Assembly: GCA_949126835.1 (NCBI GenBank)
Contig: CASBPS010000167.1
Location: 1-64,000, forward strand
Direction: 5' to 3'
DNA: 64,000 nucleotides
From: Anisus vortex
Taxonomy: Eukaryota > Mollusca > Gastropoda > Planorbidae
Below, piece after piece: positions 16,116 to 64,000 of this stretch (its first letter is position 1; every line of letters begins with the position of its first letter). Position numbers and translations under genes: made by a program. The notes below the pieces were generated by a model. That model was not told the origin of the DNA and did no database searches. It worked only from the letters and a program-made list of their open reading frames with translations.

Positions 16116-16222
16116 AAATACTAAGAAGCCATCCCTAGCCTAGAAACTAACCAATACTAAGAATAAACAAATACTAAGAAGCCATCCCTAGCCTAGGAAC
16201 TAACCGATACTGGCTAAAAGCA
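16116..16222. repeat. Two-copy 53-bp direct repeat
   Basis: The words ACTAAGAAGCCATCCCTAGC and ACTAACC recur in order with a spacing of 53 bp (starts about 16116 and 16169). The copies are nearly identical. No coding role is visible. Confidence 0.7.
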
Positions 16223-17031: not shown

Positions 17032-17069
17032 AATATATATATTATACATATATGTATATATATATATAT
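17032..17069. repeat. (TA)n microsatellite
   Basis: Imperfect TA dinucleotide run in AT-rich DNA. Confidence 0.85.
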
Positions 17070-18187: not shown

Positions 18188-18451
18188 CTTGTGGCAATTG
18201 GACATGGGGAGAAAACTGCACTAAAAACTGCAACTGTACCCAAAACAACACAGTGGTGTGTGAAAAATATCAAGGCACATGCATGTGTATATCCGACTAT
18301 GAAGGTGCATCATGTGAGAAAATCTTAGATCGATGCTCTCTATACACTCCTTGTGACCAGCATTCAGATTGTGTGAACAGAGTTGGACATTACGAGTGTC
18401 TATGTGATGAAGGCTTTAAGCACAATCCTAACAACCCCAACATTTGTGAAG
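18188..18451 (+). CDS. Exon A of unit 1: MEGF-like EGF plus second EGF domain
   Basis: Encodes unit residues 1-88, phase 1 to phase 1. The first segment has eight cysteines spaced as in laminin/MEGF-type EGF repeats (C-GENC-C-C-C-GTCMC-GASC). The second has six cysteines ending in CVNRVGHYECLCDEGF, a classic EGF/cbEGF ending. EGF domains mediate extracellular protein contacts and structure. Symmetric phase makes the exon a self-contained cassette. Sequons at NWT, NCT and NNT suggest glycosylation. Confidence 0.85.
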
Positions 18452-22408: not shown

Positions 22409-25400
22409 GTAAGGTAGAAACTATCTCTAAACTTTATTACTGGTGCACTCTTTGTAAGAGATATACAGATAATAAAATAATTGTCTCTTTTGTTTTGTTG
22501 CAACAACAGCATGTGGCAATTGGACATGGGGAGAAAACTGCACTAAAAAATGCAACTGTACCCAAAACAACACAGTGGTTTGTAAAAAATTTCAAGGCAC
22601 ATGCATGTGTACATCTGACTTTGAAGGTGCATCATGTGAGAAAATCTTAGATCGATGCTCTCTATACGCGCCTTGTGACCAGCATTCAGATTGTGTGAAC
22701 AGAGTTGGTCATTACGAGTGTCTATGTCATGAAGGCTTTAAACACAATCCTAACAACCCCAACATTTGTGAAGGTATAGTTTTCCTCTTTAATATACCCT
22801 GTGGTTTAAATTTCATTTAGGATGTGCTATGAGTCTAATCACTATTTTCTCTTTATAGCATGCAGTGGCTTGACCTTTGGATCTGATTGTAACTCTACTT
22901 GTAGCTGTCACCCAGAAAATACAGAAAGCTGTGACAGCATTACAGGAAATTGTACCTGTAAGCCAGGATTTTACACTGCATCTTGTGAACTGGACATCAA
23001 TGAATGCAATCAAAGTTCTAGCCCTTGTGCTGAAAACCTGAAATGTTACAACACTTATGGAAGTTTCCTTTGTAAGTATTTGTGAAAATGTGACATTATT
23101 TTTCACTTATCAGCATGTGTTATAAATGTGTTTCATTTAGTAAAATTTCCAAGCAGCTGAAGATATCTTTCAAAAGATATCTTTTTCGCCTTTATTGATT
23201 AGACCATCTCTGATTTGTGTATGTTGCTTTAGTTTCTCAGTTGAGTTTTTGACTTTGTTATGAACCTAACTGTTTTGAGATTTTTAATATGTCTTCTGTG
23301 GACCTGATATTTTATGTTTCCTTTCATATTTTACAGGTATTGAAAAGTTTGGTGAGTTGAATTGAATGTGTGTCCATAACTTGCATGAAATAAATTAAAG
23401 CCAATTCGAACAGAGTTAAACTGTAAATCCTTTAGATAATTATACTTCTTTGATTTTTGGCTTAAAGGAGATAAACTCATTTTTTTTTGTGTTACAGTAT
23501 ACATCAGAGTTACAATAGCCCAAGCAGCTTCATGGATGTATACTGATGAAATTGTTTCTACCTTTCAACAAGATTTACAGTCTTGGATGGACTATTATTA
23601 CTATACATACATCAAAACAATTGTAACACCCTTTAGCACTCAACATAGGTACTAGATATTTAATGATAAAATAGTTGTTTTAAAAGTTGATATCCTCTAT
23701 TAAGTAAATTCTTCATGTTGGGCCAACTTTTTCACAATCTGTCTCTAACATCTGTTCATTCACAGCACACTGACCACAGACATCTTGTATAATGTCATCA
23801 CTGTGTACGGCAGCCAATCTGTTGACTATAACTTGATGTATTTCATTTACAACCGTTTCATTACTGTCTCACCAACAATAACAGTGAATGGAACTGACTT
23901 TGACATACTGTCCTTTAAAGTTTATGAGACTCAGGAGGAAGCTCGGCTAGACTTGAATCCTAAAAGTATGTTTTGGGGACAAAATTTAACTAATCTTATT
24001 TTAGAACAAATGAACTGAACATTGTAGTTTAATGTTTGAAAGAACATTGATAGCATTTTCTTTTCGCTATTACAATCCACAGTATACAAAATGTGCCAGT
24101 CTTATGGAATATGTCCATCCAACAGCACATGTCTTAACTCTGAGTCTGTACCTGTTTGTCAAGGTATCTAGCTACTATTAAATGAATATTTTTTTTTTAA
24201 AGAGATAGACGTAAGTAAAAAATCATTAACTGTTTAGGGATTTGTTAGTGTATTTGTTTTAGTTCTTAGCATTTGTTCAAGGTATTATTTTTTGACATTA
24301 TGCTACTTGCACATTTACTATATAAAATGTGAACAATAATGAAAAAAATTATTGATAAAAAAATATTTTAATATTTACCATGCCGATAAAAATATTTCTA
24401 GCAATATGTGAAGAAGGCATGTATGCTTTGAAAGAGAAATGTGTGGCTTGTGAAGAAGGAAAAACCACTTTAACCAAAGGTGCCAATTCACATCATTTCT
24501 GTATAGGTAAGTGAAAGAGGTCCCTACTTTTTTGTGTTTCAGCTGGTTTGAATAGAGCATATAAGGATAGCTTGTTGGTACTGATTTATCATTTGATGAA
24601 TTGATACATTTATATAACATATTGTCATTTGGATGTCTAGAAAAATGCAAGCCTGGATACTACATGACTTTTGACAAACTGACCTGTGAGCCTTGTCCAC
24701 AAGATATGTATTGGAGCTATGCAGACAATTCATGCCATGTCTGTCCATACACTTCATTCAACTCTACCTCTTGCTTAGAAGGAGATTGTAAGTAACTTAA
24801 ATAATGCACTTGATTCTTATTGACATGTAAGCAAAATTCATTGTAGATTAGTTGGGCTTTTTACCAACACGTTGTGTATGTTCCCTTTCAGTGAGGAGCA
24901 TCAGCAATCCACTGGTCAATATTGAAATGAATCTCACCATATTGACACCAAAATGTCTGAAAGATGATCCCCAATACTTCAATAACAGAGATGAAAGAGA
25001 ACTAGTTTGGCTCATGGCTACACAAAGCTCTGCATATTCAAGGTAAGACATTACAGGTTGTTTAAAAAATGTAAGTGTTTTATACAATTCTGCTTACTTC
25101 CAACACATAAAAAAAAGACATCAGAAATATGTTTTTTTTCTTCTGTTCCTTGTACTGGTGTAATAATGTCATATCCACATATTTCAGTCGATTTTGTTCA
25201 CCATATGTCGGCTGTGACAATGTGCTTGTAAGATATGCTGATAACGCCATCTGTGTGCCCGATTCTTCCTGCACTGCTAATGAGACATGCAAATTATTCC
25301 GTACTGAGATTCACATGGGCATCTACCATATTGGGTAAGATGATATTCTAAAAATATTTTTTTTAAATTAATTAAGCTAAATGTGACATGATCATTGTGC

Positions 25401-28400
25401 ATTAAAAGTAATTTTCTCAGGCAATGCAAATGGATTAGTTTTCTTTTATCGCTTTAGGACCTATTTAACCTCAGCCAGCCAGTATAATGGTCATGATCAA
25501 AGCTCAGTAGACATGCTGATGAGAAATCTCTACGATACTTCACAATTATATCTTTGGATTCCAGCTATGGTATTTAAACATTTGAGAGCTTTTACTTCAT
25601 ATAAGTACTTTTGGTACACTTGGACCATTTTCTTTATGTTCATTTATCTCTTTACTCATGATTGTATTCTTGTAAAACCTTTCATTTAACCAACTGTTTT
25701 TAATTACCAACAGAACTACGCAGCCATTAGACTGGAGCAGCCTTTCAAAATCAAAGTATCTACCATAGGTAAGCTATTTTACATCCCCTACCTTTATCCA
25801 AGAAAAAAACTAGCTGTAGAGTGGAAATTTGTTAAGACTAGAAAAAAAACTGTGTTACCTGTTAATGTACATAACGGTGTCATAATGTCTTACTCAGATG
25901 ATGCCACTAAACAAATGCTCTATATCAGACATACCATATTGTATTACAATGATCCATACAGGATACTGGAGGTAAAAAAATAATTTCTCACATTTTTAAT
26001 AGTACAAGTATCTGGTTAATCAAAGAATTGTTTTTAGTTACAAGCTTTCATTAAATCTCTATCATTTCTTAGGTTTTGAACACAATTTTCAAAAGTTTAC
26101 CAGAGTTCATTAGAGCCTACCTAGTCGGTAACTATGGGTAAGTGTGGAAACCATCTTTTTTATTGAAAGAATGCAATGTGGCTTTATTTATATTTGTAAA
26201 AAATAAAATTACATATTCATCGCCCTCTTTCAAACAGGAATACATGCAATAACTATGGATGCTTCTATACCTCGGAGTATGAAATTTGGCTTCGTAAAGA
26301 CATTAATGACCCCCTGCTGAGAAAAATTGCAGAAACGATGGTTTTGTCTCATGAAAAACTTCAAGGCAATTACACTGGTTCATTGTTGTTGTTCAAAACA
26401 CAGACGGATAAAACCGAAGGAATTCAAGGTAAGAACATGTTGAGCTAGTTGTTATTTGCACAACTGAATTAACCATGGCCAAAAAAAAGTCTTCCATGTA
26501 TATTTTTCCTGAAAAGATCATGTGATGACTAGAGTACAAGCTTTTGCAGTAAGGTTAACATTTTGAAATGTGCATGACAACAGTAAGCAATTATTTATAA
26601 TTGTTGTTTTTCTTCAACATGCAGCAATCAACTGGAAAGAACTGATCAACAGTCTTTCAGTTGCTCAATTCTTCTGCAGTGGAGGAAATTTCATCATCTC
26701 TGACAATGGCAATATGAATTATTATTGTGTTGAAGGTAAGGTAGAAACTATCTCTAAACTTTATTACTGGTGCACTCTTTGTAAGAGATATACAGATAAT
26801 AAAATAATTGTCTCTTTTGTTTTGTTGCAACAACAGCATGTGGCAATTGGACATGGGGAGAAAACTGCACAGAAAAATGCAACTGTACCCAAAACAACAC
26901 AGTGGTTTGTGAAAAAAATCAAGGCACATGCAGGTGTACATCTGACTTTGAAGGTGCATCATGTGAGAAAATCTTAGATCGATGCTCTCTATACGCTCCT
27001 TGTGACCAGCATTCAGATTGTGTGAACAGAGTTGGTTATTACGAGTGTCGCTGTCATGAAGGCTTTAAACACAATCCTAACAACCCCAACATTTGTGAAG
27101 GTATAGTTTTTCTCTTTAATATATCCTGTGGTTTAAATTTCATTTAGGATGTGCCATGAGTCTAATCACTATTTTCTCTTTATAGCATGCAGTGGCTTGA
27201 CCTTTGGATCTGATTGTAACTCTACATGTAACTGCCACCCAGAAAATACAGAAAGCTGTGACAGCATTACAGGAAATTGTACCTGTAAGCCAGGATTTTA
27301 CACTGCCTCTTGTGAACGGGACATCGATGAATGCAATCAAACTTCTAGCCCTTGTGCTGAAAACTTGAAATGTTACAACACTTATGGAAGTTTTCTTTGT
27401 AAGTATTTGTGAAAAGTGTGTCATATTATTTACTTATCAGCAAGTGGCGTAAACATATTTGATTTTGTAGAATTTTAAGGTAGCTGAAGTTATCTTTCAA
27501 AAGATATATTTTTCTGTTCTATTGATTGGGCCATCACTGAATTGTGTGTGAGGCTTTAGCTTATCAGTCAAGTTTCTATCTTTGTTAAATATATTTCTGA
27601 ACCTAATAGTTTTGAGATTTTAAATTTGTCTTGTGTTGATCTGATATGTTTTGTTTATTTTTCTATTTCGCAGGCATTGAAAAGTTTGGTGAGTTGCATT
27701 GAATGTTTGTCTAGTAACATGAAATACATTAAAGCTATCTCGTACAGAGTTAAACTGTAGAGCCTTTGCTAATTAAATCATTTGCTTTATGGCTTTTAGT
27801 AGAGAAATTCATTTTTTTAAAATCTGTTACAGTATGCATCAGAGTTACTTTAGCTCAATCACCTCCAATGGTCTACACCGATGCTATTGTCTCTCAGTTT
27901 CAACAGAGTTTACAGTCTTGGCTGGATCAGTATTATTATACAACCTTTAGAACAATTGTAACACCCTATAGCACTCAATATAGGTACAAGTTATTTGATG
28001 ATAAAGTAGTATTTTTAGAAGTATATATAGTTTCTTAGGTAAATCAATCTCGATCATGTTGGGCCAACTTTTTCACAATATGTCTCTAAAATCTGTTCAT
28101 CCACAGCACACTGACCACAGACATCTTGTATAATGTCATCACTGTGTACGGCAGCCAATCTATTGACTCTTACATGATGTATTTCATTTACAACCGTTTC
28201 ATTACTGCCTCCCCAACAATAACAGTCAATGGAACTGACTTTGACATACTGTCCTTTAAAGTTTATGAGACTCAGGAGGAAGCTCGGCTAGACTTGAATC
28301 CTAAAAGTATGTTTTTGGGACAAAATTAAACTAATCTTATTTTAGAACAAATGAACCGAACATGGTTGTTTAATGTTAGAAAGAACACTGATAACTTTTC

Positions 28401-31400
28401 CTTTTCTCCATTACAATCCACAGTATACAAAATGTGCCAGTCTTATGGAATATGTCCATCCAACAGCACATGTCTTAACTCTGAGTCTGTACCTGTTTGT
28501 CAAGGTATCTAGCTCCTACTGAATTTTAATTTAAAGAAAAGGATAGACCTAAGCAAAAAATCATTAACTGTTTAGGGATTTGTTAGCGTATTTTTTTTTT
28601 ATTCTCAAGGTATATTTTTTTTAGACATTATGCTACTCAAACGTATAGATTCATTTTTCAATCATTTACATATAAAATGTGAGCAATAATGAAAAAATGT
28701 ATTGAAAAAAATATTTTCATATTTAACATGCTGACAAAACTATTTCTAGCAATATGTGAAAAAGGCATGTATGCTTTGAAAGAGAAATGTGTGGCTTGTG
28801 ATGAAGGAAAAACCACTTTAGCCAAAGGTGCCAATTCACACCATTACTGTATAGGTAAGTGAAAGAGGTCCCTACTATTTTGTGTTTCAGCTGGTTTAAA
28901 TAGAGCATATAAGGATAGCTTGTTGGTACTGATTTATCATTTGATGAATTGATACATTTATATAACATATTGTCATTTGGATGTCTAGAAAAATGCAAGC
29001 CTGGTTACTACATGACTCTTGACAAACTGACCTGTGAGCCTTGTCCACAAGATATGTATTGGAGCTATGCAGACAATTCATGCCATGTCTGTCCATACAC
29101 TTCATTCAACTCTACCTCTTGCTTAGAAGGAGATTGTAAGTAACTTAAATAATGCACTTGATTCTTATTGACATGTAAGCAAAATTCATTGTAGATTAGT
29201 TGGGCTTTTTACCAACACGTTGTGTATGTTCCCTTTCAGTGAGGAGCATCAGCAATCCACTGGTCAATATTGAAATGAATCTCACCATATTGACACCAAA
29301 ATGTCTGAAAGATGATCCCCAATACTTCAATAACATAGATGAAAGAGAACTAGTTCGGCTCATGGCCACACAAAGCTATGCATATTCTAGGTAATGCATT
29401 ACTGATTGTAAAGAAATGTAAATGTTTTACACAATTCTGCTTACTCCTAACCCATAAAAAAGAAAGACATTAGAAATGTGTTGTTTTTTTTCTGTTGTTT
29501 GTTGTACTGGTGTAATAATGTCATATCTACATCTTTCAGTCGATTTTGTTCACCATATGTCGGCTGTGACAATGTACTTGTAAGTTATGCTGATAACGCC
29601 ATCTGTGTGCCTGATTCATCCTGCACTGCTAATGAGACATGCAAATTATTCCATACTGGTGTTCACTTGGGCGTCTACCATATTGGGTAAGATGATATTC
29701 TAAGCATTGTTTTAAAATTGATTAAGCACAATGAAAGCCAAAAGTGACTTGCCCCCCATGTGCACTCAAAGGAATCTTCTCGGACAATGCAAATACATTA
29801 GTTTTTTTTTCTCACTTTAGGAGCTATTTAACCTCAGCCAGCCAGTATAATGGTCATGATCAAAGCTCAGTAGACATGCTGATGAGAAATCTCTACGATA
29901 CTTCACAATTATATCTTTGGATTCCAGCTATGGTATTTAAACATTTGAGAGCTTTTACTTCATATAAGTACTTTTGGTACACTTGGACCATTTTCTTTAT
30001 GTTCATTTATCTCTTTACTCATGATTGTATTCTTGTAAAACCTTTCATTTAACCAACTGTTTTCAATTACCAACAGAACTACGCAGCCATTAGACTGGAG
30101 CAGCCTTTCAAAATCAAAGTATCTACCATAGGTAAGCTATTTTACATCCCCTACCTTTATCCAAGAAAAAAACTAGCTGTAGAGTGGAAATTTGTTAAGA
30201 CTAGAAAAAGAACTGTGTTACCTGTTAATGTACATAACGGTGTTATAATGTCTTACTCAGATGATGCCACTAAACAAATGCTCTATATCAGACATACCAT
30301 ATGGTATTACAATGATCCATACAGGATACTAGAGGTAAAAGAAAAAAAAGTTCTCACATTTTTTTTTATTTTTAAATTATTTGTTTAATCAAAGAATTGT
30401 TTTTAGTTACAAGCTTTCATTAAATCTCTATCATTTCTTAGGTTTTGAACACAATTTTCAAAAGTTTACCAGAGTTCATTAGAGCCTACCTAGTCGGTAA
30501 CTATGGGTAAGTGTGGAAACCATCTTTTTTATTGAAAGAATGCAATGTGGCTTTATTTATATTTGTAAAAAAAAAAATTACATATTCATCGCCCTCTTTC
30601 AAACAGGAATAATTGCAATATTAATGGATGCTTCTATACATCGGAGTATGAAATTTGGCTTCGTAAAGACATTGATGACGCCCTACTGAGAAAAATTGCA
30701 GAAACAATGGTTTTGTCTCATAAAAATCTTCAAGGCAATCTCACGGGACCATTGTCTTTGTTCAAGACACAGACAGAAAGAGCCGAAGGAATTCAAGGTG
30801 AGAACATGTTGAGTTACTCATTATTTGCACAACTCAATCAGCCATGGACAAAAAAGTCTTCCATGCATATTATTGCTGAATAGATCCTGTGTAGACTATT
30901 ATAGTAGAAGCATTCGCAATAAGTTTAACATTTTGAAATGTTCATGACAACAGTGAGCTATTATTTATAATTGTTGTTTTTCTTCAACATGCAGCAATCA
31001 ACTGGAAAGAACTGATCAAGAGTCTTTCAGTCGCTCAATTCTTCTGCAGTGGAGGAAATTTCATCATCTCTGACAATGGCAATATGAATTATGATTGTGT
31101 TGAAGGTAAGGTAGAAACTATCTCTAAACTTTATTACTGGTGCACTCTTTGTAAGAGATATACAGATAATAAAATAATTGTCTCTTTTGTTTTGTTGCAA
31201 CAACAGCATGTGGCAATTGGACATGGGGAGAAAACTGCACAGAAAAATGCAACTGTACCCAAAACAACACAGTGGTTTGTGAAAAATATCAAGGCACATG
31301 CAGGTGTACATCTGACTTTGAAGGTGCATCATGTGAGAAAATCTTAGATCGATGCTCTCTATACGCTCCTTGTGACCAGTATTCAGATTGTGTGAACAGA

Positions 31401-34400
31401 GTTGGTTATTACGAGTGTCGCTGTCTTGAAGGCTTTAAACACAATCCTAACAACCCCAACATTTGTGAAGGTATAGTTTTTCTCTTTAATATATCCTGTG
31501 GTTTAAATTTCATTTAGGATGTGCCATGAGTCTAATCACTATTTTATCTTTATAGCATGCAGTGGCTTGACCTTTGGATCTGATTGTAACTCTACATGTA
31601 ACTGCCACCCAGAAAATACAGAAAGCTGTGACAGCATTACAGGAAATTGTACCTGTAAGCCAGGATTTTACACTGCCTCTTGTGAACGGGACATCGATGA
31701 ATGCAATCAAACTTCTAGCCCTTGTGCTGAAAACTTGAAATGTTACAACACATATGGAAGTTTCCTTTGTAAGTATTTGTGAAAAGTGTGTCATATTATT
31801 TACTTATCAGCAAGTGGCGTAAACATATTTGATTTTGTAGAATTTCAAGGTAGCTGAAGTTATCTTTCAAAAGATATCTTTTTCTGTTCTATTGATTGGG
31901 CCATCACTGAATTGTGTGTGAGGCTTTAGCTTATCAGTCAAGTTTCTATCTTTGTTAAATATATTTCTGAACCTAATAGTTTTGAGATTTTCAATTTGTC
32001 TTGTGTTGATCTGATATGTTTTGTTTATTTTTCTATTTCGCAGGCATTGAAAAGTTTGGTGAGTTGCATCGAATGTTTGTCTAGTAACATGAAATACATT
32101 AAAGCTATCTCGTACAGATTTAAACTGTAGAGCCTTTTGCTAATTAAATCATTTGCTTTATGGCTTTTAGTAGACAAATTCATTTTTTTAAAATCTGTTA
32201 CAGTATACATCAGAGTTACTTTAACTCAATCACCTCCAATGGTCTACACCGATGAGATTGTCTCTCAGTTTCAACAGAGTTTACAGTCTTGGCTGGATCA
32301 GTGTTATTATACAACCTTTAGAACAATTGTAACACCCTATAGCACTCAAAATAGGTACAAGTTATTTGATGATAAAGTAGTATTTTTAGAAGTATATATA
32401 ATTTCTTAGGTAAATCGATCTCGATCATGTTGGGCCAACTTTTTCACAATATGTCTCTAAAATCTGTTCATCCACAGCACACTGACCACAGACATCTTGT
32501 ATAATGTCATCACTGTGTACGGCAGCCAATCTATTGACTCTTACATGATGTATTTCATTTACAACCGTTTCATTACTGCCTCCCCAACAATAACAGTCAA
32601 TGGAACTGACTTTGACATACTGTCCTTTAAAGTTTATGAGACTCAGGAGGAAGCTCGGCTAGACTTGAATCCTAAAAGTATGTTTTTGGGACAAAATTAA
32701 ACTAATCTTATTTTAGAACAAATGAACCGAACATGGTTGTTTAATGTTAGAAAGAACACTGATAACTTTTCCTTTTCTCCATTACAATCCACAGTATACA
32801 AAATGTGCCAGTCTTATGGAATATGTCCATCCAACAGCACATGTCTTAACTCTGAGTCTGTACCTGTTTGTCAAGGTATCTAGCTCCTACTGAATTTTAA
32901 TTTAAAGAAAAGGATAGACCTAAGCAAAAAATCATTAACTGTTTAGGGATTTGTTAGCGTATTTTTTTTTTTTCTCAAGGTATATTTTTTTTAGACATTA
33001 TGCTACTCAAACGTATAGATTCATTTTTCAATCATTTACATATAAAATGTGAGCAATAATGAAAAAATGTATTGAAAAAAATATTTTCATATTTAACATG
33101 CTGACAAAACTATTTCTAGCAATATGTGAAGAAGGCATGTATGCTTTGAAAGAGAAATGTGTGGCTTGTGATGAAGGAAAAACCACTTTAGCCAAAGGTG
33201 CCAATTCACACCATTATTGTATAGGTAAGTGAAAGAGGTCCCTACTATTTTGTGTTTCAGCTGGTTTAAATAGAGCATATAAGGATAGCTTGTTGGTACT
33301 GATTTATCATTTGATGAATTGATACATTTATATAACATATTGTCATTTGGATGTCTAGAAAAATGCAAGCCTGGTTACTACATGACTCTTGACAAACTGA
33401 CCTGTGAGCCTTGTCCACAAGATATGTATTGGAGCTATGCAGACAATTCATGCCATGTCTGTCCATACACTTCATTCAACTCTACCTCTTGCCTAGAAGG
33501 AGATTGTAAGTAACTTGAATTATGCACCGAATTCTTATTGACATGTAAATAAAGTTCATTGATGATAGGTGGGTATTTTATTAACACTTTGTAAGTGTTC
33601 TCTTCCAGGGAGGACCGTCAGCAATCCACTGGTCAACATTGAAATGAATCTCACCATATTGACACCAAAATGTCTGAAAGATGATCCCCAATACTTCAAT
33701 AACATAGATGAAAGAGAACTAGTTCGGCTCATGGCCACACAAAGCTATGCATATTCTAGGTAATGCATTACTGATTGTAAAGAAATGTAAATGTTTTACA
33801 CAATTCTGCTTACTCCTAACCCATAAAAAAGAAAGACATTAGAAATGTGTTGTTTTTTTTCTGTTGTTTGTTGTACTGGTGTAATAATGTCATATCTACA
33901 TCTTTCAGTCGATTTTGTTCACCATATGTCGGCTGTGACAATGTACTTGTAAGTTATGCTGATAACGCCATCTGTGTGCCTGATTCATCCTGCACTGCTA
34001 ATGAGACATGCAAATTATTCCATACTGGTGTTCACTTGGGCGTCTACCATATTGGGTAAGATGATATTCTAAGCATTGTTTTAAAATTGATTAAGCACAA
34101 TGAAAGCCAAAAGTGACTTGCCCCCCATGTGCACTCAAAGGAATCTTCTCGGACAATGCAAATACATTAGTTTTTTTTTCTCACTTTAGGAGCTATTTAA
34201 CCTCAGCCAGCCAGTATAATGGTCATGATCAAAGCTCAGTAGACATGCTGATGAGAAATCTCTACGATACTTCACAATTATATCTTTGGATTCCAGCTAT
34301 GGTATTTAAACATTTGAGAGCTTTTACTTCATATAAGTACTTTTGGTACACTTGGACCATTTTCTTTATGTTCATTTATCTCTTTACTCATGATTGTATT

Positions 34401-46400: not shown

Positions 46401-49400
46401 CTGATTTATCATTTGATGAATTGATACATTTATATAACATATTGTCATTTGGATGTCTAGAAAAATGCAAGCCTGGTTACTACATGACTCTTGACAAACT
46501 GACCTGTGAGCCTTGTCCACAAGATATGTATTGGAGCTATGCAGACAATTCATGCCATGTCTGTCCATACACTTCATTCAACTCTACCTCTTGCCTAGAA
46601 GGAGATTGTAAGTAACTTGAATTATGCACCGGATTCTTATTGACATGTAAATAAAGTTCATTGATGATAGGTGGGTATTTTATTAACACTTTGTGAGTGT
46701 TCTCTTCCAGGGAGGACCGTCAGCAATCCACTGGTCAACATTGAAATGAATCTCACCATATTGACACCAAAATGTCTGAAAGATGATCCCCAATACTTCA
46801 ATAACATAGATGAAAGAGAACTAGTTCGGCTCATGGCCACACAAAGCTATGCATATTCTAGGTAATGCATTACTGATTGTAAAGAAATGTAAATGTTTTA
46901 CACAATTCTGCTTACTCCTAACCCATAAAAAAGAAAGACATTAGAAATGTTTTTTTTTTTTCTGTTGTTTGTTGTACTGGTGTAATAATGTCATATCTAC
47001 ATCTTTCAGTCGATTTTGTTCACCATATGTCGGCTGTGACAATGTACTTGTAAGTTATGCTGATAACGCCATCTGTGTGCCTGATTCATCCTGCACTGCT
47101 AATGAGACATGCAAATTATTCCATACTGGTGTTCACTTGGGCGTCTACCATATTGGGTAAGATGATATTCTAAGCATTGTTTTAAAATTGATTAAGCACA
47201 ATGAAAGCCAAAAGTGACTTGCCCCCCATGTGCACTCAAAGGAATCTTCTCGGACAATGCAAATACATTAGTTTTTTTTTCTCACTTTAGGAGCTATTTA
47301 ACCTCAGCCAGCCAGTATAATGGTCATGATCAAAGCTCAGTAGACATGCTGATGAGAAATCTCTACGATACTTCACAATTATATCTTTGGATTCCAGCTA
47401 TGGTATTTAAACATTTGAGAGCTTTTACTTCATATAAGTACTTTTGGTACACTTGGACCATTTTCTTTATGTTCATTTATCTCTTTACTCATGATTGTAT
47501 TCTTGTAAAACCTTTCATTTAACCAACTGTTTTCAATTACCAACAGAACTACGCAGCCATTAGACTGGAGCAGCCTTTCAAAATCAAAGTATCTACCATA
47601 GGTAAGCTATTTTACATCCCCTACCTTTATCCAAGAAAAAAACTAGCTGTAGAGTGCAAATTTGTTAAGACTAGAAAAAGAACTGTGTTACCTGTTAATG
47701 TACATAACGGTGTTATAATGTCTTACTCAGATGATGCCACTAAACAAATGCTCTATATCAGACATACCATATGGTATTACAATGATCCATACAGGATACT
47801 AGAGGTAAAAGAAAAAAAAGTTCTCACATTTTTTTATTTTTAAATTATTTGTTTAATCAAAGAATTGTTTTTAGTTACAAGCTTTCATTAAATCTCTATC
47901 ATTTCTTAGGTTTTGAACACAATTTTCAAAAGTTTACCAGAGTTCATTAGAGCCTACCTAGTCGGTAACTATGGGTAAGTGTGGAAACCATCTTTTTTAT
48001 TGAAAGAATGCAATGTGGCTTTATTTATATTTGTAAAAAATATAATTACATATTCATCGCCCTCTTTCAAACAGGAATAATTGCAATATTAATGGATGCT
48101 TCTATACATCGGAGTATGAAATTTGGCTTCGTAAAGACATTGATGACGCCCTACTGAGAAAAATTGCAGAAACAATGGTTTTGTCTCATGAAAATCTTCA
48201 AGGCAATCTCACGGGACCATTGTCTTTGTTCAAGACACAGACAGAAAGAGCCGAAGGAATTCAAGGTGAGAACATGTTGAGTTACTCATTATTTGCACAA
48301 CTCAATCAGCCATGGACAAAAAAGTCTTCCATGCATATTATTGCTGAATAGATCCTGTGTAGACTATTATAGTAGAAGCATTCGCAATAAGTTTAACATT
48401 TTGAAATGTTCATGACAACAGTGAGCTATTATTTATAATTGTTGTTTTTCTTCAACATGCAGCAATCAACTGGAAAGAACTGATCAACAGTCTTTCAGTC
48501 GCTCAATTCTTCTGCAGTGGAGGAAATTTCATCATCTCTGACAATGGCAATATGAATTATGATTGTGTTGAAGGTAAGGTAGAAACTATCTCTAAACTTT
48601 ATTACTGGTGCACTCTTTGTAAGAGATATACAGATAATAAAATAATTGTCTCTTTTGTTTTGTTGCAACAACAGCATGTGGCAATTGGACATGGGGAGAA
48701 AACTGCACAGAAAAATGCAACTGTACCCAAAACAACACAGTGGTTTGTGAAAAATATCAAGGCACATGCAGGTGTACATCTGACTTTGAAGGTGCATCAT
48801 GTGAGAAAATCTTAGATCGATGCTCTCTATACGCTCCTTGTGACCAGTATTCAGATTGTGTGAACAGAGTTGGTTATTACGAGTGTCGCTGTCTTGAAGG
48901 CTTTAAACACAATCCTAACAACCCCAACATTTGTGAAGGTATAGTTTTTCTCTTTAATATATCCTGTGGTTTAAATTTCATTTAGGATGTGCCATGAGTC
49001 TAATCACTATTTTATCTTTATAGCATGCAGTGGCTTGACCTTTGGATCTGATTGTAACTCTACATGTAACTGCCACCCAGAAAATACAGAAAGCTGTGAC
49101 AGCATTACAGGAAATTGTACCTGTAAGCCAGGATTTTACACTGCCTCTTGTGAACGGGACATCGATGAATGCAATCAAACTTCTAGCCCTTGTGCTGAAA
49201 ACTTGAAATGTTACAACACATATGGAAGTTTCCTTTGTAAGTATTTGTGAAAAGTGTGTCATATTATTTACTTATCAGCAAGTGGCGTAAACATATTTGA
49301 TTTTGTAGAATTTCAAGGTAGCTGAAGTTATCTTTCAAAAGATATCTTTTTCTGTTCTATTGATTGGGCCATCACTGAATTGTGTGTGAGGCTTTAGCTT

Positions 49401-52400
49401 ATCAGTCAAGTTTCTATCTTTGTTAAATATATTTCTGAACCTAATAGTTTTGAGATTTTCAATTTGTCTTGTGTTGATCTGATATGTTTTGTTTATTTTT
49501 CTATTTCGCAGGCATTGAAAAGTTTGGTGAGTTGCATCGAATGTTTGTCTAGTAACATGAAATACATTAAAGCTATCTCGTACAGATTTAAACTGTAGAG
49601 CCTTTTGCTAATTAAATCATTTGCTTTATGGCTTTTAGTAGACAAATTCATTTTTTTTAAATCTGTTACAGTATACATCAGAGTTACTTTAGCTCAATCA
49701 CCTCCAATGGTCTACACCGATGAGATTGTCTCTCAGTTTCAACAGAGTTTACAGTCTTGGCTGGATCAGTATTATTATACAACCTTTAGAACAATTGTAA
49801 CACCCTATAGCACTCAAAATAGGTACAAGTTATTTGATGATAAAGTAGTATTTTTAGAAGTATATATAATTTCTTAGGTAAATCGATCTCGATCATGTTG
49901 GGCCAACTTTTTCACAATATGTCTCTAAAATCTGTTCATCCACAGCACACTGACCACAGACATCTTGTATAATGTCATCACTGTGTACGGCAGCCAATCT
50001 ATTGACTCTTACATGATGTATTTCATTTACAACCGTTTCATTACTGCCTCCCCAACAATAACAGTCAATGGAACTGACTTTGACATACTGTCCTTTAAAG
50101 TTTATGAGACTCAGGAGGAAGCTCGGCTAGACTTGAATCCTAAAAGTATGTTTTTGGGACAAAATTAAACTAATCTTATTTTAGAACAAATGAACCGAAC
50201 ATGGTTGTTTAATGTTAGAAAGAACACTGATAACTTTTCCTTTTCTCCATTACAATCCACAGTATACAAAATGTGCCAGTCTTATGGAATATGTCCATCC
50301 AACAGCACATGTCTTAACTCTGAGTCTGTACCTGTTTGTCAAGGTATCTAGCTCCTACTGAATTTTAATTAAAAGAAAAGGATAGACCTAAGCAAAAAAT
50401 CATTAACTGTTTAGGGATTTGTTAGCGTATTTTTTTTTTATTCTCAAGGTATATTTTTTTTAGACATTATGCTACTCAAACGTATAGATTCATTTTTCAA
50501 TCATTTACATATAAAATGTGAGCAATAATGAAAAAATGTATTGAAAAAAATATTTTCATATTTAACATGCTGACAAAACTATTTCTAGCAATATGTGAAG
50601 AAGGCATGTATGCTTTGAAAGAGAAATGTGTGGCTTGTGATGAAGGAAAAACCACTTTAGCCAAAGGTGCCAATTCACACCATTACTGTATAGGTAAGTG
50701 AAAGAGGTCCCTACTATTTTGTGTTTCAGCTGGTTTAAATAGAGCATATAAGGATAGCTTGTTGGTACTGATTTATCATTTGATGAATTGATACATTTAT
50801 ATAACATATTGTCATTTGGATGTCTAGAAAAATGCAAGCCTGGTTACTACATGACTCTTGACAAACTGACCTGTGAGCCTTGTCCACAAGATATGTATTG
50901 GAGCTATGCAGACAATTCATGCCATGTCTGTCCATACACTTCATTCAACTCTACCTCTTGCCTAGAAGGAGATTGTAAGTAACTTGAATTATGCACCGGA
51001 TTCTTATTGACATGTAAATAAAGTTCATTGATGATAGGTGGGTATTTTATTAACACTTTGTGAGTGTTCTCTTCCAGGGAGGACCGTCAGCAATCCACTG
51101 GTCAACATTGAAATGAATCTCACCATATTGACACCAAAATGTCTGAAAGATGATCCCCAATACTTCAATAACATAGATGAAAGAGAACTAGTTCGGCTCA
51201 TGGCCACACAAAGCTATGCATATTCTAGGTAATGCATTACTGATTGTAAAGAAATGTAAATGTTTTACACAATTCTGCTTACTCCTAACCCATAAAAAAG
51301 AAAGACATTAGAAATGTGTTGTTTTTTTTCTGTTGTTTGTTGTACTGGTGTAATAATGTCATATCTACATCTTTCAGTCGATTTTGTTCACCATATGTCG
51401 GCTGTGACAATGTACTTGTAAGTTATGCTGATAACGCCATCTGTGTGCCTGATTCATCCTGCACTGCTAATGAGACATGCAAATTATTCCATACTGGTGT
51501 TCACTTGGGCGTCTACCATATTGGGTAAGATGATATTCTAAGCATTGTTTTAAAATTGATTAAGCACAATGAAAGCCAAAAGTGACTTGCCCCCCATGTG
51601 CACTCAAAGGAATCTTCTCGGACAATGCAAATACATTAGTTTTTTTTCTCACTTTAGGAGCTATTTAACCTCAGCCAGCCAGTATAATGGTCATGATCAA
51701 AGCTCAGTAGACATGCTGATGAGAAATCTCTACGATACTTCACAATTATATCTTTGGATTCCAGCTATGGTATTTAAACATTTGAGAGCTTTTACTTCAT
51801 ATAAGTACTTTTGGTACACTTGGACCATTTTCTTTATGTTCATTTATCTCTTTACTCATGATTGTATTCTTGTAAAACCTTTCATTTAACCAACTGTTTT
51901 CAATTACCAACAGAACTACGCAGCCATTAGACTGGAGCAGCCTTTCAAAATCAAAGTATCTACCATAGGTAAGCTATTTTACATCCCCTACCTTTATCCA
52001 AGAAAAAAACTAGCTGTAGAGTGGAAATTTGTTAAGACTATAAAAAGAACTGTGTTACCTGTTAATGTACATAACGGTGTTATAATGTCTTACTCAGATG
52101 ATGCCACTAAACAAATGCTCTATATCAGACATACCATATGGTATTACAATGATCCATACAGGATACTAGAGGTAAAAGAAAAAAAAGTTCTCACATTTTT
52201 TTATTTTTAAATTATTTGTTTAATCAAAGAATTGTTTTTAGTTACAAGCTTTCATTAAATCTCTATCATTTCTTAGGTTTTGAACACAATTTTCAAAAGT
52301 TTACCAGAGTTCATTAGAGCCTACCTAGTCGGTAACTATGGGTAAGTGTGGAAACCATCTTTTTTATTGAAAGAATGCAATGTGGCTTTATTTATATTTG

Positions 52401-55400
52401 TAAAAAATAAAATTACATATTCATCGCCCTCTTTCAAACAGGAATAATTGCAATATTAATGGATGCTTCTATACATCGGAGTATGAAATTTGGCTTCGTA
52501 AAGACATTGATGACGCCCTACTGAGAAAAATTGCAGAAACAATGGTTTTGTCTCATGAAAATCTTCAAGGCAATCTCACGGGACCATTGTCTTTGTTCAA
52601 GACACAGACAGAAAGAGCCGAAGGAATTCAAGGTGAGAACATGTTGAGTTACTCATTATTTGCACAACTCAATCAGCCATGGACAAAAAAGTCTTCCATG
52701 CATATTATTGCTGAATAGATCCTGTGTAGACTATTATAGTAGAAGCATTCGCAATAAGTTTAACATTTTGAAATGTTCATGACAACAGTGAGCTATTATT
52801 TATAATTGTTGTTTTTCTTCAACATGCAGCAATCAACTGGAAAGAACTGATCAACAGTCTTTCAGTCGCTCAATTCTTCTGCAGTGGAGGAAATTTCATC
52901 ATCTCTGACAATGGCAATATGAATTATGATTGTGTTGAAGGTAAGGTAGAAACTATCTCTAAACTTTATTACTGGTGCACTCTTTGTAAGAGATATACAG
53001 ATAATAAAATAATTGTCTCTTTTGTTTTGTTGCAACAACAGCATGTGGCAATTGGACATGGGGAGAAAACTGCACAGAAAAATGCAACTGTACCCAAAAC
53101 AACACAGTGGTTTGTGAAAAATATCAAGGCACATGCAGGTGTACATCTGACTTTGAAGGTGCATCATGTGAGAAAATCTTAGATCGATGCTCTCTATACG
53201 CTCCTTGTGACCAGTATTCAGATTGTGTGAACAGAGTTGGTTATTACGAGTGTCGCTGTCTTGAAGGCTTTAAACACAATCCTAACAACCCCAACATTTG
53301 TGAAGGTATAGTTTTTCTCTTTAATATATCCTGTGGTTTAAATTTCATTTAGGATGTGCCATGAGTCTAATCACTATTTTCTCTTTATAGCATGCAGTGG
53401 CTTGACCTTTGGATCTGATTGTAACTCTACATGTAACTGCCACCCAGAAAATACAGAAAGCTGTGACAGCATTACAGGAAATTGTACCTGTAAGCCAGGA
53501 TTTAACACTGCCTCTTGTGAACGGGACATCGATGAATGCAATCAAACTTCTAGCCCTTGTGCTGAAAACTTGAAATGTTACAACACATATGGAAGTTTCC
53601 TTTGTAAGTATTTGTGAAAAGTGTGTCATATTATTTACTTATCAGCAAGTGGCGTAAACATATTTGATTTTGTAGAATTTCAAGGTAGCTGAAGTTATCT
53701 TTCAAAAGATATCTTTTTCTGTTCTATTGATTGGGCCATCACTGAATTGTGTGTGAGGCTTTAGCTTATCAGTCAAGTTTCTATCTTTGTTAAATATATT
53801 TCTGAACCTAATAGTTTTGAGATTTTCAATTTGTCTTGTGTTGATCTGATATGTTTTGTTTATTTTTCTATTTCGCAGGCATTGAAAAGTTTGGTGAGTT
53901 GCATCGAATGTTTGTCTAGTAACATGAAATACATTAAAGCTATCTCGTACAGATTTAAACTGTAGAGCCTTTTGCTAATTAAATCATTTGCTTTATGGCT
54001 TTTAGTAGACAAATTCATTTTTTTTAAATCTGTTACAGTATACATCAGAGTTACTTTAGCTCAATCACCTCCAATGGTCTACACCGATGAGATTGTCTCT
54101 CAGTTTCAACAGAGTTTACAGTCTTGGCTGGATCAGTATTATTATACAACCTTTAGAACAATTGTAACACCCTATAGCACTCAAAATAGGTACAAGTTAT
54201 TTGATGATAAAGTAGTATTTTTAGAAGTATATATAATTTCTTAGGTAAATCGATCTCGATCATGTTGGGCCAACTTTTTCACAATATGTCTCTAAAATCT
54301 GTTCATCCACAGCACACTGACCACAGACATCTTGTATAATGTCATCACTGTGTACGGCAGCCAATCTATTGACTCTTACATGATGTATTTCATTTACAAC
54401 CGTTTCATTACTGCCTCCCCAACAATAACAGTCAATGGAACTGACTTTGACATACTGTCCTTTAAAGTTTATGAGACTCAGGAGGAAGCTCGGCTAGACT
54501 TGAATCCTAAAAGTATGTTTTTGGGACAAAATTAAACTAATCTTATTTTAGAACAAATGAACCGAACATGGTTGTTTAATGTTAGAAAGAACACTGATAA
54601 CTTTTCCTTTTCTCCATTACAATCCACAGTATACAAAATGTGCCAGTCTTATGGAATATGTCCATCCAACAGCACATGTCTTAACTCTGAGTCTGTACCT
54701 GTTTGTCAAGGTATCTAGCTCCTACTGAATTTTAATTAAAAGAAAAGGATAGACCTAAGCAAAAAATCATTAACTGTTTAGGGATTTGTTAGCGTATTTT
54801 TTTTTATTCTCAAGGTATATTTTTTTTAGACATTATGCTACTCAAACGTATAGATTCATTTTTCAATCATTTACATATAAAATGTGAGCAATAATGAAAA
54901 AATGTATTGAAAAAAATATTTTCATATTTAACATGCTGACAAAACTATTTCTAGCAATATGTGAAGAAGGCATGTATGCTTTGAAAGAGAAATGTGTGGC
55001 TTGTGATGAAGGAAAAACCACTTTAGCCAAAGGTGCCAATTCACACCATTACTGTATAGGTAAGTGAAAGAGGTCCCTACTATTTTGTGTTTCAGCTGGT
55101 TTAAATAGAGCATATAAGGATAGCTTGTTGGTACTGATTTATCATTTGATGAATTGATACATTTATATAACATATTGTCATTTGGATGTCTAGAAAAATG
55201 CAAGCCTGGTTACTACATGACTCTTGACAAACTGACCTGTGAGCCTTGTCCACAAGATATGTATTGGAGCTATGCAGACAATTCATGCCATGTCTGTCCA
55301 TACACTTCATTCAACTCTACCTCTTGCCTAGAAGGAGATTGTAAGTAACTTGAATTATGCACCGGATTCTTATTGACATGTAAATAAAGTTCATTGATGA

Positions 55401-58400
55401 TAGGTGGGTATTTTATTAACACTTTGTGAGTGTTCTCTTCCAGGGAGGACCGTCAGCAATCCACTGGTCAACATTGAAATGAATCTCACCATATTGACAC
55501 CAAAATGTCTGAAAGATGATCCCCAATACTTCAATAACATAGATGAAAGAGAACTAGTTCGGCTCATGGCCACACAAAGCTATGCATATTCTAGGTAATG
55601 CATTACTGATTGTAAAGAAATGTAAATGTTTTACACAATTCTGCTTACTCCTAACCCATAAAAAAGAAAGACATTAGAAATGTGTTGTTTTTTTTCTGTT
55701 GTTTGTTGTACTGGTGTAATAATGTCATATCTACATCTTTCAGTCGATTTTGTTCACCATATGTCGGCTGTGACAATGTACTTGTAAGTTATGCTGATAA
55801 CGCCATCTGTGTGCCTGATTCATCCTGCACTGCTAATGAGACATGCAAATTATTCCATACTGGTGTTCACTTGGGCGTCTACCATATTGGGTAAGATGAT
55901 ATTCTAAGCATTGTTTTAAAATTGATTAAGCACAATGAAAGCCAAAAGTGACTTGCCCCCCATGTGCACTCAAAGGAATCTTCTCGGACAATGCAAATAC
56001 ATTAGTTTTTTTTCTCACTTTAGGAGCTATTTAACCTCAGCCAGCCAGTATAATGGTCATGATCAAAGCTCAGTAGACATGCTGATGAGAAATCTCTACG
56101 ATACTTCACAATTATATCTTTGGATTCCAGCTATGGTATTTAAACATTTGAGAGCTTTTACTTCATATAAGTACTTTTGGTACACTTGGACCATTTTCTT
56201 TATGTTCATTTATCTCTTTACTCATGATTGTATTCTTGTAAAACCTTTCATTTAACCAACTGTTTTCAATTACCAACAGAACTACGCAGCCATTAGACTG
56301 GAGCAGCCTTTCAAAATCAAAGTATCTACCATAGGTAAGCTATTTTACATCCCCTACCTTTATCCAAGAAAAAAACTAGCTGTAGAGTGGAAATTTGTTA
56401 AGACTAGAAAAAAAACTGTGTTACCTGTTAATGTACATAACGGTGTTATAATGTCTTACTCAGATGATGCCACTAAACAAATGCTCTATATCAGACATAC
56501 CATATGGTATTACAATGATCCATACAGGATACTAGAGGTAAAAGAAAAAAAAGTTCTCACATTTTTTTATTTTTAAATTATTTGTTTAATCAAAGAATTG
56601 TTTTTAGTTACAAGCTTTCATTAAATCTCTATCATTTCTTAGGTTTTGAACACAATTTTCAAAAGTTTACCAGAGTTCATTAGAGCCTACCTAGTCGGTA
56701 ACTATGGGTAAGTGTGGAAACCATCTTTTTTATTGAAAAAATGCAATGTGGCTTTATTTATATTTGTAAAAAATAAAATTACATATTCATCGCCCTCTTT
56801 CAAACAGGAATAATTGCAATATTAATGGATGCTTCTATACATCGGAGTATGAAATTTGGCTTCGTAAAGACATTGATGACGCCCTACTGAGAAAAATTGC
56901 AGAAACAATGATTTTGTCTCATGAAAATCTTCAAGGCAATCTCACGGGACCATTGTCTTTGTTCAAGACACAGACAGAAAGAGCCGAAGGAATTCAAGGT
57001 GAGAACATGTTGAGTTACTCATTATTTGCACAACTCAATCAGCCATGGACAAAAAAGTCTTCCATGCATATTATTCCTGAATAGATCCTGTGTAGACTAT
57101 TATAGTAGAAGCATTCGCAATAAGTTTAACATTTTGAAATGTTCATGACAACAGTGAGCTATTATTTATAATTGTTGTTTTTCTTCAACATGCAGCAATC
57201 AACTGGAAAGAATTGATCAACAGTCTTTCAGTTGCTCAATTCTTCTGCAGTGGAGGAAATTTCATCATCTCTGACAATGGCAATATGAATTATTATTGTG
57301 TTGAAGGTAAGGTAGAAACTATCTCTAAACTTTATTACTGGTGCACTCTTTGTAAGAGATATACAGATAATAAAATAATTGTCTCTTTTGTTTTGTTGCA
57401 ACAACAGCATGTGGCAATTGGACATGGGGAGAAAACTGCACAGAAAAATGCAACTGTACCCAAAACAACACAGTGGTTTGTGAAAAAAATCAAGGCACAT
57501 GCAGGTGTACATCTGACTTTGAAGGTGCATCATGTGAGAAAATCTTAGATCGATGCTCTCTATACGCTCCTTGTGACCAGCATTCAGATTGTGTGAACAG
57601 AGTTGGTTATTACGAGTGTCGCTGTCATGAAGGCTTTAAACACAATCCTAACAACCCCAACATTTGTGAAGGTATAGTTTTTCTCTTTAATATATCCTGT
57701 GGTTTAAATTTCATTTAGGATGTGCCATGAGTCTAATCACTATTTTCTCTTTATAGCATGCAGTGGCTTGACCTTTGGATCTGATTGTAACTCTACATGT
57801 AACTGCCACCCAGAAAATACAGAAAGCTGTGACAGCATTACAGGAAATTGTACCTGTAAGCCAGGATTTTACACTGCCTCTTGTGAACGGGACATCGATG
57901 AATGCAATCAAACTTCTAGCCCTTGTGCTGAAAACTTGAAATGTTACAACACTTATGGAAGTTTTCTTTGTAAGTATTTGTGAAAAGTGTGTCATATTAT
58001 TTACTTATCAGCAAGTGGCGTAAACATATTTGATTTTGTAGAATTTTAAGGTAGCTGAAGTTATCTTTCAAAAGATATATTTTTCTGTTCTATTGATTGG
58101 GCCATCACTGAATTGTGTGTGAGGCTTTAGCTTATCAGTCAAGTTTCTATCTTTGTTAAATATATTTCTGAACCTAATAGTTTTGAGATTTTAAATTTGT
58201 CTTGTGTTGATCTGATATGTTTTGTTTATTTTTCTATTTCGCAGGCATTGAAAAGTTTGGTGAGTTGCATTGAATGTTTGTCTAGTAACATGAAATACAT
58301 TAAAGCTATCTCGTACAGAGTTAAACTGTAGAGCCTTTGCTAATTAAATCATTTGCTTTATGGCTTTTAGTAGACAAATTCATTTTTTTAAAATCTGTTA

Positions 58401-61400
58401 CAGTATACATCAGAGTTACTTTAGCTCAATCACCTCCAATGGTCTACACCGATGAGATTGTCTCTCAGTTTCAACAGAGTTTACAGTCTTGGCTGGATCA
58501 GTATTATTATACAACCTTTAGAACAATTGTAACACCCTATAGCACTCAATATAGGTACAAGTTATTTGATGATAAAGTAGTATTTTTAGAAGTATATATA
58601 GTTTCTTAGGTAAATCAATCTCGATCATGTTGGGCCAACTTTTTCACAATATGTCTCTAAAATCTGTTCATCCACAGCACACTGACCACAGACATCTTGT
58701 ATAATGTCATCACTGTGTACGGCAGCCAATCTATTGACTCTTACATGATGTATTTCATTTACAACCGTTTCATTACTGCCTCCCCAACAATAACAGTCAA
58801 TGGAACTGACTTTGACATACTGTCCTTTAAAGTTTATGAGACTCAGGAGGAAGCTCGGCTAGACTTGAATCCTAAAAGTATGTTTTTGGGACAAAATTAA
58901 ACTAATCTTATTTTAGAACAAATGAACCGAACATGGTTGTTTAATGTTAGAAAGAACACTGATAACTTTTCCTTTTCTCCATTACAATCCACAGTATACA
59001 AAATGTGCCAGTCTTATGGAATATGTCCATCCAACAGCACATGTCTTAACTCTGAGTCTGTACCTGTTTGTCAAGGTATCTAGCTCCTACTGAATTTTAA
59101 TTAAAAGAAAAGGATAGACCTAAGCAAAAAATCATTAACTGTTTAGGGATTTGTTAGCGTATTTTTTTTTATTCTCAAGGTATATTTTTTTTAGACATTA
59201 TGCTACTCAAACGTATAGATTCATTTTTCAATCATTTACATATAAAATGTGAGCAATAATGAAAAAATGTATTGAAAAAAATATTTTCATATTTAACATG
59301 CTGACAAAACTATTTCTAGCAATATGTGAAGAAGGCATGTATGCTTTGAAAGAGAAATGTGTGGCTTGTGATGAAGGAAAAACCACTTTAGCCAAAGGTG
59401 CCAATTCACACCATTACTGTATAGGTAAGTGAAAGAGGTCCCTACTATTTTGTGTTTCAGCTGGTTTAAATAGAGCATATAAGGATAGCTTGTTGGTACT
59501 GATTTATCATTTGATGAATTGATACATTTATATAACATATTGTCATTTGGATGTCTAGAAAAATGCAAGCCTGGTTACTACATGACTCTTGACAAACTGA
59601 CCTGTGAGCCTTGTCCACAAGATATGTATTGGAGCTATGCAGACAATTCATGCCATGTCTGTCCATACACTTCATTCAACTCTACCTCTTGCCTAGAAGG
59701 AGATTGTAAGTAACTTGAATTATGCACCGAATTCTTATTGACATGTAAATAAAGTTCATTGATGATAGGTGGGTATTTTATTAACACTTTGTGAGTGTTC
59801 TCTTCCAGGGAGGACCGTCAGCAATCCACTGGTCAACATTGAAATGAATCTCACCATATTGACACCAAAATGTCTGAAAGATGATCCCCAATACTTCAAT
59901 AACATAGATGAAAGAGAACTAGTTCGGCTCATGGCCACACAAAGCTATGCATATTCTAGGTAATGCATTACTGATTGTAAAGAAATGTAAATGTTTTACA
60001 CAATTCTGCTTACTCCTAACCCATAAAAAAGAAAGACATTAGAAATGTGTTGTTTTTTTTCTGTTGTTTGTTGTACTGGTGTAATAATGTCATATCTACA
60101 TTTTTCAGTCGATTTTGTTCACCATATGTCGGCTGTGACAATGTACTTGTAAGTTATGCTGATAACGCCATCTGTGTGCCTGATTCATCCTGCACTGCTA
60201 ATGAGACATGCAAATTATTCCATACTGGTGTTCACTTGGGCGTCTACCATATTGGGTAAGATGATATTCTAAGCATTGTTTTAAAATTGATTAAGCACAA
60301 TGAAAGCCAAAAGTGACTTGCCCCCCATGTGCACTCAAAGGAATCTTCTCGGACAATGCAAATACATTAGTTTTTTTTCTCACTTTAGGAGCTATTTAAC
60401 CTCAGCCAGCCAGTATAATGGTCATGATCAAAGCTCAGTAGACATGCTGATGAGAAATCTCTACGATACTTCACAATTATATCTTTGGATTCCAGCTATG
60501 GTATTTAAACATTTGAGAGCTTTTACTTCATATAAGTACTTTTGGTACACTTGGACCATTTTCTTTATGTTCATTTATCTCTTTACTCATGATTGTATTC
60601 TTGTAAAACCTTTCATTTAACCAACTGTTTTCAATTACCAACAGAACTACGCAGCCATTAGACTGGAGCAGCCTTTCAAAATCAAAGTATCTACCATAGG
60701 TAAGCTATTTTACATCCCCTACCTTTATCCAAGAAAAAAACTAGCTGTAGAGTGGAAATTTGTTAAGACTAGAAAAAAAACTGTGTTACCTGTTAATGTA
60801 CATAACGGTGTTATAATGTCTTACTCAGATGATGCCACTAAACAAATGCTCTATCTCAGACATACCATATGGTATTACAATGATCCATACAGGATACTAG
60901 AGGTAAAAGAAAAAAAAGTTCTCACATTTTTTTATTTTTAAATTATTTGTTTAATCAAAGAATTGTTTTTAGTTACAAGCTTTCATTAAATCTCTATCAT
61001 TTCTTAGGTTTTGAACACAATTTTCAAAAGTTTACCAGAGTTCATTAGAGCCTACCTAGTCGGTAACTATGGGTAAGTGTGGAAACCATCTTTTTTATTG
61101 AAAGAATGCAATGTGGCTTTATTTATATTTGTAAAAAATAAAATTACATATTCATCGCCCTCTTTCAAACAGGAATAATTGCAATATTAATGGATGCTTC
61201 TATACATCGGAGTATGAAATTTGGCTTCGTAAAGACATTGATGACGCCCTACTGAGAAAAATTGCAGAAACAATGGTTTTGTCTCATGAAAATCTTCAAG
61301 GCAATCTCACGGGACCATTGTCTTTGTTCAAGACACAGACAGAAAGAGCCGAAGGAATTCAAGGTGAGAACATGTTGAGTTACTCATTATTTGCACAACT

Positions 61401-64000: not shown

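Follow-up and report, generated by a model that had tools for sequence, protein, structure and literature searches.

A giant gene of tandem 16-exon units in the snail Anisus vortex, predicted to encode a MUC4-like membrane protein

Tandem repeats set the length of membrane mucins. In MUC4, a human transmembrane mucin, the expandable repeats lie on the N-terminal side of NIDO, VWD, C8-3_MUC4 and EGF domains and a transmembrane helix, in that order; MUC16 holds SEA domains inside a tandemly repeated unit and is not known to have NIDO or VWD. Dumpy, nebulin and FCGBP are giant and repetitive, with blocks that are duplicated and homogenised within the gene; their domains differ, and their blocks are, as far as is known, fewer or smaller. 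The number of long homologous repeats of the membrane receptor CR1 differs between alleles. Four repeats of a unit of seven short consensus repeats are described for CR1 (PMC6883348). Here we analyse a stretch of 64,000 nucleotides from the planorbid snail Anisus vortex (assembly GCA_949126835.1, contig CASBPS010000167.1, here C125, from base 1 to its end at 64000; the window), which carries an array of tandem 16-exon units.

With a probability of roughly 0.74, we read the window as the interior of one giant gene, encoding a type I membrane protein that would be MUC4-like near the membrane and bear an outer chain of units. The giant shares with MUC4 the NIDO, VWD, C8-3_MUC4, EGF and predicted transmembrane segments in the same order, and its repeats also lie on the N-terminal side; whereas the repeats of MUC4 are short and rich in Ser/Thr/Pro, each repeat of the giant is a folded unit of 694 residues, rich in cysteine and encoded by 16 exons, and Pfam does not list AMOP. 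In a low-confidence model, exons D–E of the unit best match the MUC16 SEA fold, which sequence comparison did not bear out; the unit also has EGF and putative TNFR/ephrin-like modules. Like CR1, the giant has a repeated multi-exon block, with 20–33 blocks of sixteen exons instead of four of seven, and with other domains. As far as our literature searches show, the unit size (16 exons, 694 residues), the copy number, the combination of a MUC4-like tail with folded repeats, and an apparent 13-unit difference within one assembly are new.

The 16-exon unit and its reading frame

Spacing between repeated 16-mers in the window peaked at 4,350 bp and its multiples. Exon borders were read from unit 1 and then sought in the other units, giving exons A to P of 264, 213, 15, 151, 200, 81, 105, 147, 151, 147, 112, 55, 74, 65, 191 and 111 nt, which sum to 2,082 nt, or 694 codons, per unit. 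All 16 lengths are kept in units 1–10 and those of exons A–G in unit 11, of whose exon H only the first 77 nt precede the contig end. The periods of units 1–10 are 4322, 4327, 4370, 4367, 4369, 4366, 4366, 4367, 4366 and 4365 bp. Searches of the assembly (863 Mb in 159 contigs) placed further units on three other contigs, here C87, C116 and C9. The features of the window, all on the forward strand, are as follows.

1..18187, +, probable large intron between unit 0 and array unit 1 (its C87 match follows exon P of unit 0 and precedes exon A of unit 1)
18188..22408, +, unit 1, 16 exons (AG/GT edges, 694 codons)
Unit 1 exons, +: A 18188-18451, B 18543-18755, C 19037-19051, D 19190-19340
Unit 1 exons, +: E 19465-19664, F 19782-19862, G 20076-20180, H 20319-20465
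Unit 1 exons, +: I 20570-20720, J 20865-21011, K 21135-21246, L 21386-21440
Unit 1 exons, +: M 21571-21644, N 21745-21809, O 21911-22101, P 22298-22408
22510..26735, +, unit 2, 16 exons
26837..31105, +, unit 3, 16 exons
31207..35472, +, unit 4, 16 exons, nearly identical to unit 6
35574..39841, +, unit 5, 16 exons, nearly identical to unit 7
39943..44207, +, unit 6, 16 exons
44309..48573, +, unit 7, 16 exons
48675..52940, +, unit 8, 16 exons
53042..57306, +, unit 9, 16 exons
57408..61671, +, unit 10, 16 exons
61773..64000, +, unit 11, exons A-G whole and 77 nt of H (runs on at C116 base 1)

All 334 edges of the 167 whole exons in the window are AG/GT, and a single frame without stop runs for 7,282 residues through the ten full units and the partial eleventh. 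Each unit is bordered at both ends by a phase-1 intron, and the P-to-A introns measure exactly 101 bp in 10 of 10 cases. These results bear out the initial annotation in its ten and a half repeats, its conserved exon lengths and splice sites, and its frame closing from unit to unit in one continuous giant gene. The gene is predicted to be transcribed and spliced as one mRNA.

Units 3–10 are near-identical even in their introns (98.5–100% intron identity; 99.3–100% within units 4–10), so that equal exon lengths among them say little. Comparisons of unit 1, unit 2 and units 3–10 with one another span more divergence, with 94.4–96.0% identity in exons and 88.0–90.8% in introns; here the introns are 9–12% different (uncorrected), with 89–142 gapped alignment columns, and no exon length has changed. 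For five such older pairs, among units 1, 2 and 3/5, dN (nonsynonymous divergence) was 0.030–0.045 and dS (synonymous divergence) 0.086–0.108, giving dN/dS of 0.35–0.45 (Nei-Gojobori); intron divergence in four of these pairs was 0.098–0.131. The older pairs show coding constraint. Protein identity among five compared window units was 91–99%.

The predicted protein and its planorbid relatives

In protein searches whose candidates depended on query length, one unit returned one Biomphalaria glabrata protein, and a longer query returned 12; a query with P0002 returned five, two of them new. Some of the matched proteins share EGFs alone with the unit. The relatives comprise Biomphalaria pfeifferi P0014, P0002 and P0007, deposited as 'fibrillin-2/-3, partial'; Bulinus truncatus P0004 (Btru_045538) and P0003 (Btru_045539), with consecutive locus numbers; and B. 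glabrata P0005 (A0A2C9KBE5) and P0001 (A0A2C9LWX4). Window units are 57–63% identical to full units of the other species, with the same order within the unit. P0002 holds three full units and one partial unit, 99–100% identical to one another, and its tail, like that of P0007, matches the tail found in the Anisus genome.

After the last array unit on C87, the first tail exon lies at about 233658. A spliced model of the 3' end, rough and possibly with its shortest exons misplaced, comprises 45 exons and 2,262 residues (64% identity to the P0002 tail) and reaches base 259360, followed by TAA. Its 45-bp intron at 239386-239430 is probably an insertion skipped by the aligner, because tblastn ran through it. 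Pfam listed NIDO (PF06119, 1.1e-15, 58.5 bits, cut-off 25), then VWD (PF00094, 1.3e-18) and C8-3_MUC4 (PF23263, 7.8e-8), both over their cut-offs. Membrane-proximal EGFs, one hydrophobic helix (by hydropathy only) and a short basic tail close the model; by eye, the tails of P0002 and P0007 likewise end in a hydrophobic helix and a basic tail. We propose that the membrane-proximal part would run from NIDO and VWD through a MUC4-type C8-3, a stretch resembling cadherin, many EGFs in series and a stretch resembling SEA to a single transmembrane helix with a short tail. A 15-nt micro-exon, exon C in the units, also stands directly before NIDO, so the NIDO part seems to sit where the A–C exons of a unit lead.

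Within the unit, Pfam listed EGF_CA (PF07645, 4e-9, 37 bits, cut-off 27). Weak matches to an ELAPOR1-type TNFR module (PF23091, 2.7e-7, 30.8 bits, under the cut-off of 33.2) and to ephrin_rec_like (PF07699, 0.0064) came from P0003, and neither family was listed for the window unit at E 1. In a low-confidence AlphaFold model, the fold of exons D–E best matches the SEA domains of MUC16; folds missing from the results of the structure comparison are not counted as excluded. No hhalign signal was obtained between the profile of exons I–P and SEA sequences, or between D–E and I–P. Each unit carries 13–14 N-glycosylation sequons. We propose the order EGF, EGF, SEA-like (D–E), cysteine-rich TNFR/ephrin-receptor-like (F–H), one or two globular domains (I–O) and a short cysteine-containing link (P). 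Ser, Thr and Pro together make up 20–21% of units 1, 2 and 5, with a maximum of 30 per 100 residues in unit 5; as the units are not Ser/Thr/Pro-rich tandem repeats, the giant is not classed as a mucin proper.

The EGF modules named in the initial annotation are confirmed by the database match, the ephrin-receptor-like module has weak matches from related units only, and one of the domains it left unassigned now resembles SEA in the low-confidence model. Its statement that no protein of this architecture had been described needs qualifying, since predicted relatives are deposited from Biomphalaria and Bulinus under fibrillin, EGF-like or hypothetical names; among the titles and abstracts listed by literature searches, no description of the unit-bearing planorbid proteins was found, and a term search of the B. 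pfeifferi genome paper gave neither 'fibrillin' nor 'giant'. These deposited proteins are unnamed or named fibrillin and mostly partial, whereas A. vortex shows the array, the exons, the 3' end and two lengths in one assembly.

B. glabrata P0006 and P0008, named fibrillin-1-like or multiple EGF domains protein 6, look like a sister kind of giant, with an 88–89-residue EGF pair like exons A–B alone; P0006 has about 20 copies of the pair. Physella acuta P0010 (LOC131938174), with three CUB domains, EGFs, NIDO and a long EGF series, matches the unit through its EGF part only; it is a possible plain relative and may hint at what the N-terminus of the giant looks like.

Array lengths, upstream units and concerted evolution

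C87 carries 20 array units, whose A exons start at positions from 145744 to 228573, with 640 of 640 edges canonical and 13,879 residues without a stop. An exon-H pattern allowing up to three mismatches, whose counts are lower bounds, occurs at least 21 times on C87 (20 array units and unit 0), at least 22 times on C116, at least 11 times on C125 and at least once on C9 (unit 0). C116 base 1 continues C125 base 64000 in mid exon H, in the same phase and with 2 of 400 positions mismatched against the matching part of unit 10. The frame stays open through the two units checked across this join, where 63 of 64 edges are canonical and the exception is the cut start of the analysed string. On C9, a 200-N gap sits at the position that, in C87 coordinates, precedes C125 base 1. 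From these matches we infer that curation cut a single sequence into C9, C125 and C116, that the gene of this longer version, with its 33 array units, is split over the three, and that C87, which has 20, represents the other haplotype, which would make the two versions alleles. C125, C116 and C87 measure exactly 64,000, 150,000 and 268,000 bases, which points to manual curation cuts.

The two versions were aligned unit by unit, with w for window units and c for array units of C87. Units w1 and c1, and w3 and c3, are identical; w2 corresponds to c2 (4 differences), w8 to c5 (1), and w9 and w10 to c6 and c7 (3), while w4–w7 occupy a place that on C87 seems to be filled by c4 only. The 5 kb of C116 that were compared at the 3' array end (94001-99000) are identical to C87. 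C87 units 7–19 differ pairwise at 0–14 sites per 4.37 kb. In units 13–19 of C87, lengths alternate between 4366 and 4351 bp, and c16 is identical to c18, which suggests recent duplication in two-unit steps; window units 4–5 and 6–7 form a pattern like these steps. The predicted C87 protein comprises about 770 + 13,880 + 2,290, near 16,900 residues, and the longer version perhaps about 26,000 if all units are intact, both counted without unit -1 and the 5' end.

Window positions 1-189 match C87:124448-124637, 942-11599 match C87:124629-135285, and 11592-18188 match C87:139122-145744; the C87 counterpart of window 1-18187 follows exon P of unit 0 (123074) and precedes exon A of unit 1 (145744). 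As it lies between two units and no unit-like exon was found in window 1-18187, this part reads as a large intron. Position 18188, the first in the initial annotation, is not the start of the gene, and the annotated count of at least ten units was too low, given 20 and 33 array units and older ones upstream. A possible signal-peptide ATG picked by eye near window 17457 was dropped, as the left part of the window lies between units. Open frames at 8229-8870, 11370-11762 and 14209-14616 look like mobile-element pieces, resembling a reverse-transcriptase end and a hAT-like transposase; Pfam gave no match for the three. C87:135285-139122 is about 3.8 kb extra relative to the window, whose flanking matches overlap by 8 bases (11592-11599), the pattern that a transposon would leave on inserting with duplication of an 8-bp target.

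Unit 0 spans about 104974-123190 on C87 and is also present on C9. Its A–E part is diverged and P0001-like, while several later exons are close to array units: DNA similarity to the array picked out exons F, H–L, O and P but not A–E. The pattern is as if gene conversion had extended into an older unit. Farther upstream on C87, blast and spliced alignment placed a diverged unit -1, with exons like F–J at 95372-98035; identity is about 33% over the whole alignment and 47–59% in the G and H pieces, and the A–E part was not resolved.

In a tree of 22 rows, all eight Anisus units fell on one side of a branch (100/99), as did all four B. truncatus units (100/100). Unit similarity within lineages is far above that between lineages, a pattern that we take to reflect concerted evolution of a multi-exon block. 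Because both unit ends are phase-1 introns, whole 16-exon units could be added, deleted or homogenised by unequal crossing over or gene conversion with the frame left intact.

Competing explanations and significance

Gene clusters usually arise by whole-unit duplication, and an array of separate short genes or decaying copies would also give tandem blocks. This reading is very improbable, and we rejected it: a 101-bp P-to-A intron, found 10 times of 10, cannot accommodate the end of one gene and the beginning of another, the phase-1 borders close the frame, and no stop interrupts the window units, the 20 C87 units or the two units over the C125/C116 join. In B. pfeifferi, B. truncatus and B. 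glabrata, too, deposited models run across unit borders. A secreted extracellular-matrix filament, fibrillin- or dumpy-like, would agree with EGF_CA in the unit and with relatives deposited as fibrillin-2/-3; we consider it improbable, given the hydrophobic helix and basic tail at the Anisus 3' end and, by eye, in P0002 and P0007, and given that Pfam listed no fibrillin-type TB (8-Cys) domain for P0002 or P0007 (E 0.01) or for the unit (E 1). The extracellular filament of the initial annotation is not supported by the 3' end on C87, which encodes NIDO, VWD and C8-3 domains, EGFs and a hydrophobic helix with a short tail.

On array length, we hold at even odds that one snail carries two alleles whose unit numbers, 20 and 33, differ by 13 in-frame blocks of 16 exons (about 9,000 residues), and that unequal crossing over shifts the length of the giant in 694-residue steps, separately in each planorbid lineage, schistosome hosts included. 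That the gene is real and the 33 against 20 units an assembly or haplotig artefact is somewhat unlikely. C87 units 7–19 are nearly identical and such an array is hard to assemble; C125 and C116 were split from one sequence at a round coordinate, perhaps since their placement was doubtful; and C9 and C87 differ by about 1.4–5% near unit 0 (9% in one 0.9-kb piece), while C125 differs from C87 by 0.05–0.4% (1% in its first 190 bases), which makes the relation of C9 to C125 less sure and weighs against alleles. An artefact fits poorly with the ordered, distinct edge units of both versions, with the defined place of the extra w4–w7, and with a reported assembly consensus quality of 59.7 (PMC10477736).

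Several results count against the giant membrane protein as we reconstruct it. Pfam listed no AMOP, a domain that would be expected alongside NIDO and VWD, in the Anisus tail (E 0.1) or in P0002 (E 1); a cysteine-rich stretch occupies its expected place between the two. The membrane-proximal SEA scored 23.6 against a cut-off of 26.4 in B. pfeifferi and was not listed for the Anisus tail. Within the unit, SEA was not listed at E 1, the D–E profile reached an hhalign probability of 0.2 of 100 against SEA sequences, and both AlphaFold models were poor, with mean predicted local distance difference test scores of 44.6 and 49.9. Four young pairs (units 3, 5, 9 and 10) gave dN/dS of 0.45–0.71 from few changes. 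C116 was analysed over 14 of its 150 kb. The 3' end was followed to a stop codon, and no 5' end, start codon or signal peptide was found by blast and spliced alignment in C87:60001-104960. P0014 has ten repeats at 529-residue spacing, the last one cut, without exons like F, K–N and P. Between its residues 353 and 5576, the omitted parts form frame-neutral groups by the window exon lengths, and its first partial unit keeps I–P; either an annotation artefact or regular exon skipping would account for the omissions. In the tree, the B. pfeifferi and B. glabrata units are mixed instead of forming one group each, which would fit orthology of some units between these two species, and unit 0 joins the Anisus units on a long branch though its A–E part resembles P0001.

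The giant would rank among the largest predicted animal proteins. Its role may be that of a very long, disulphide-rich, N-glycosylated shield or adhesion stalk at the cell surface, with unit number setting its reach. The unit of intragenic amplification here is a very large multi-exon block instead of a one- or two-exon module, and concerted evolution within one reading frame becomes testable, since the sequence directly shows the phase-1 ends, the lengths of the arrays and the homogenisation within lineages. The relatives are oddly named and fragmented in Biomphalaria and Bulinus, which are schistosome hosts, and a surface protein of variable length in these snails would be worth knowing.
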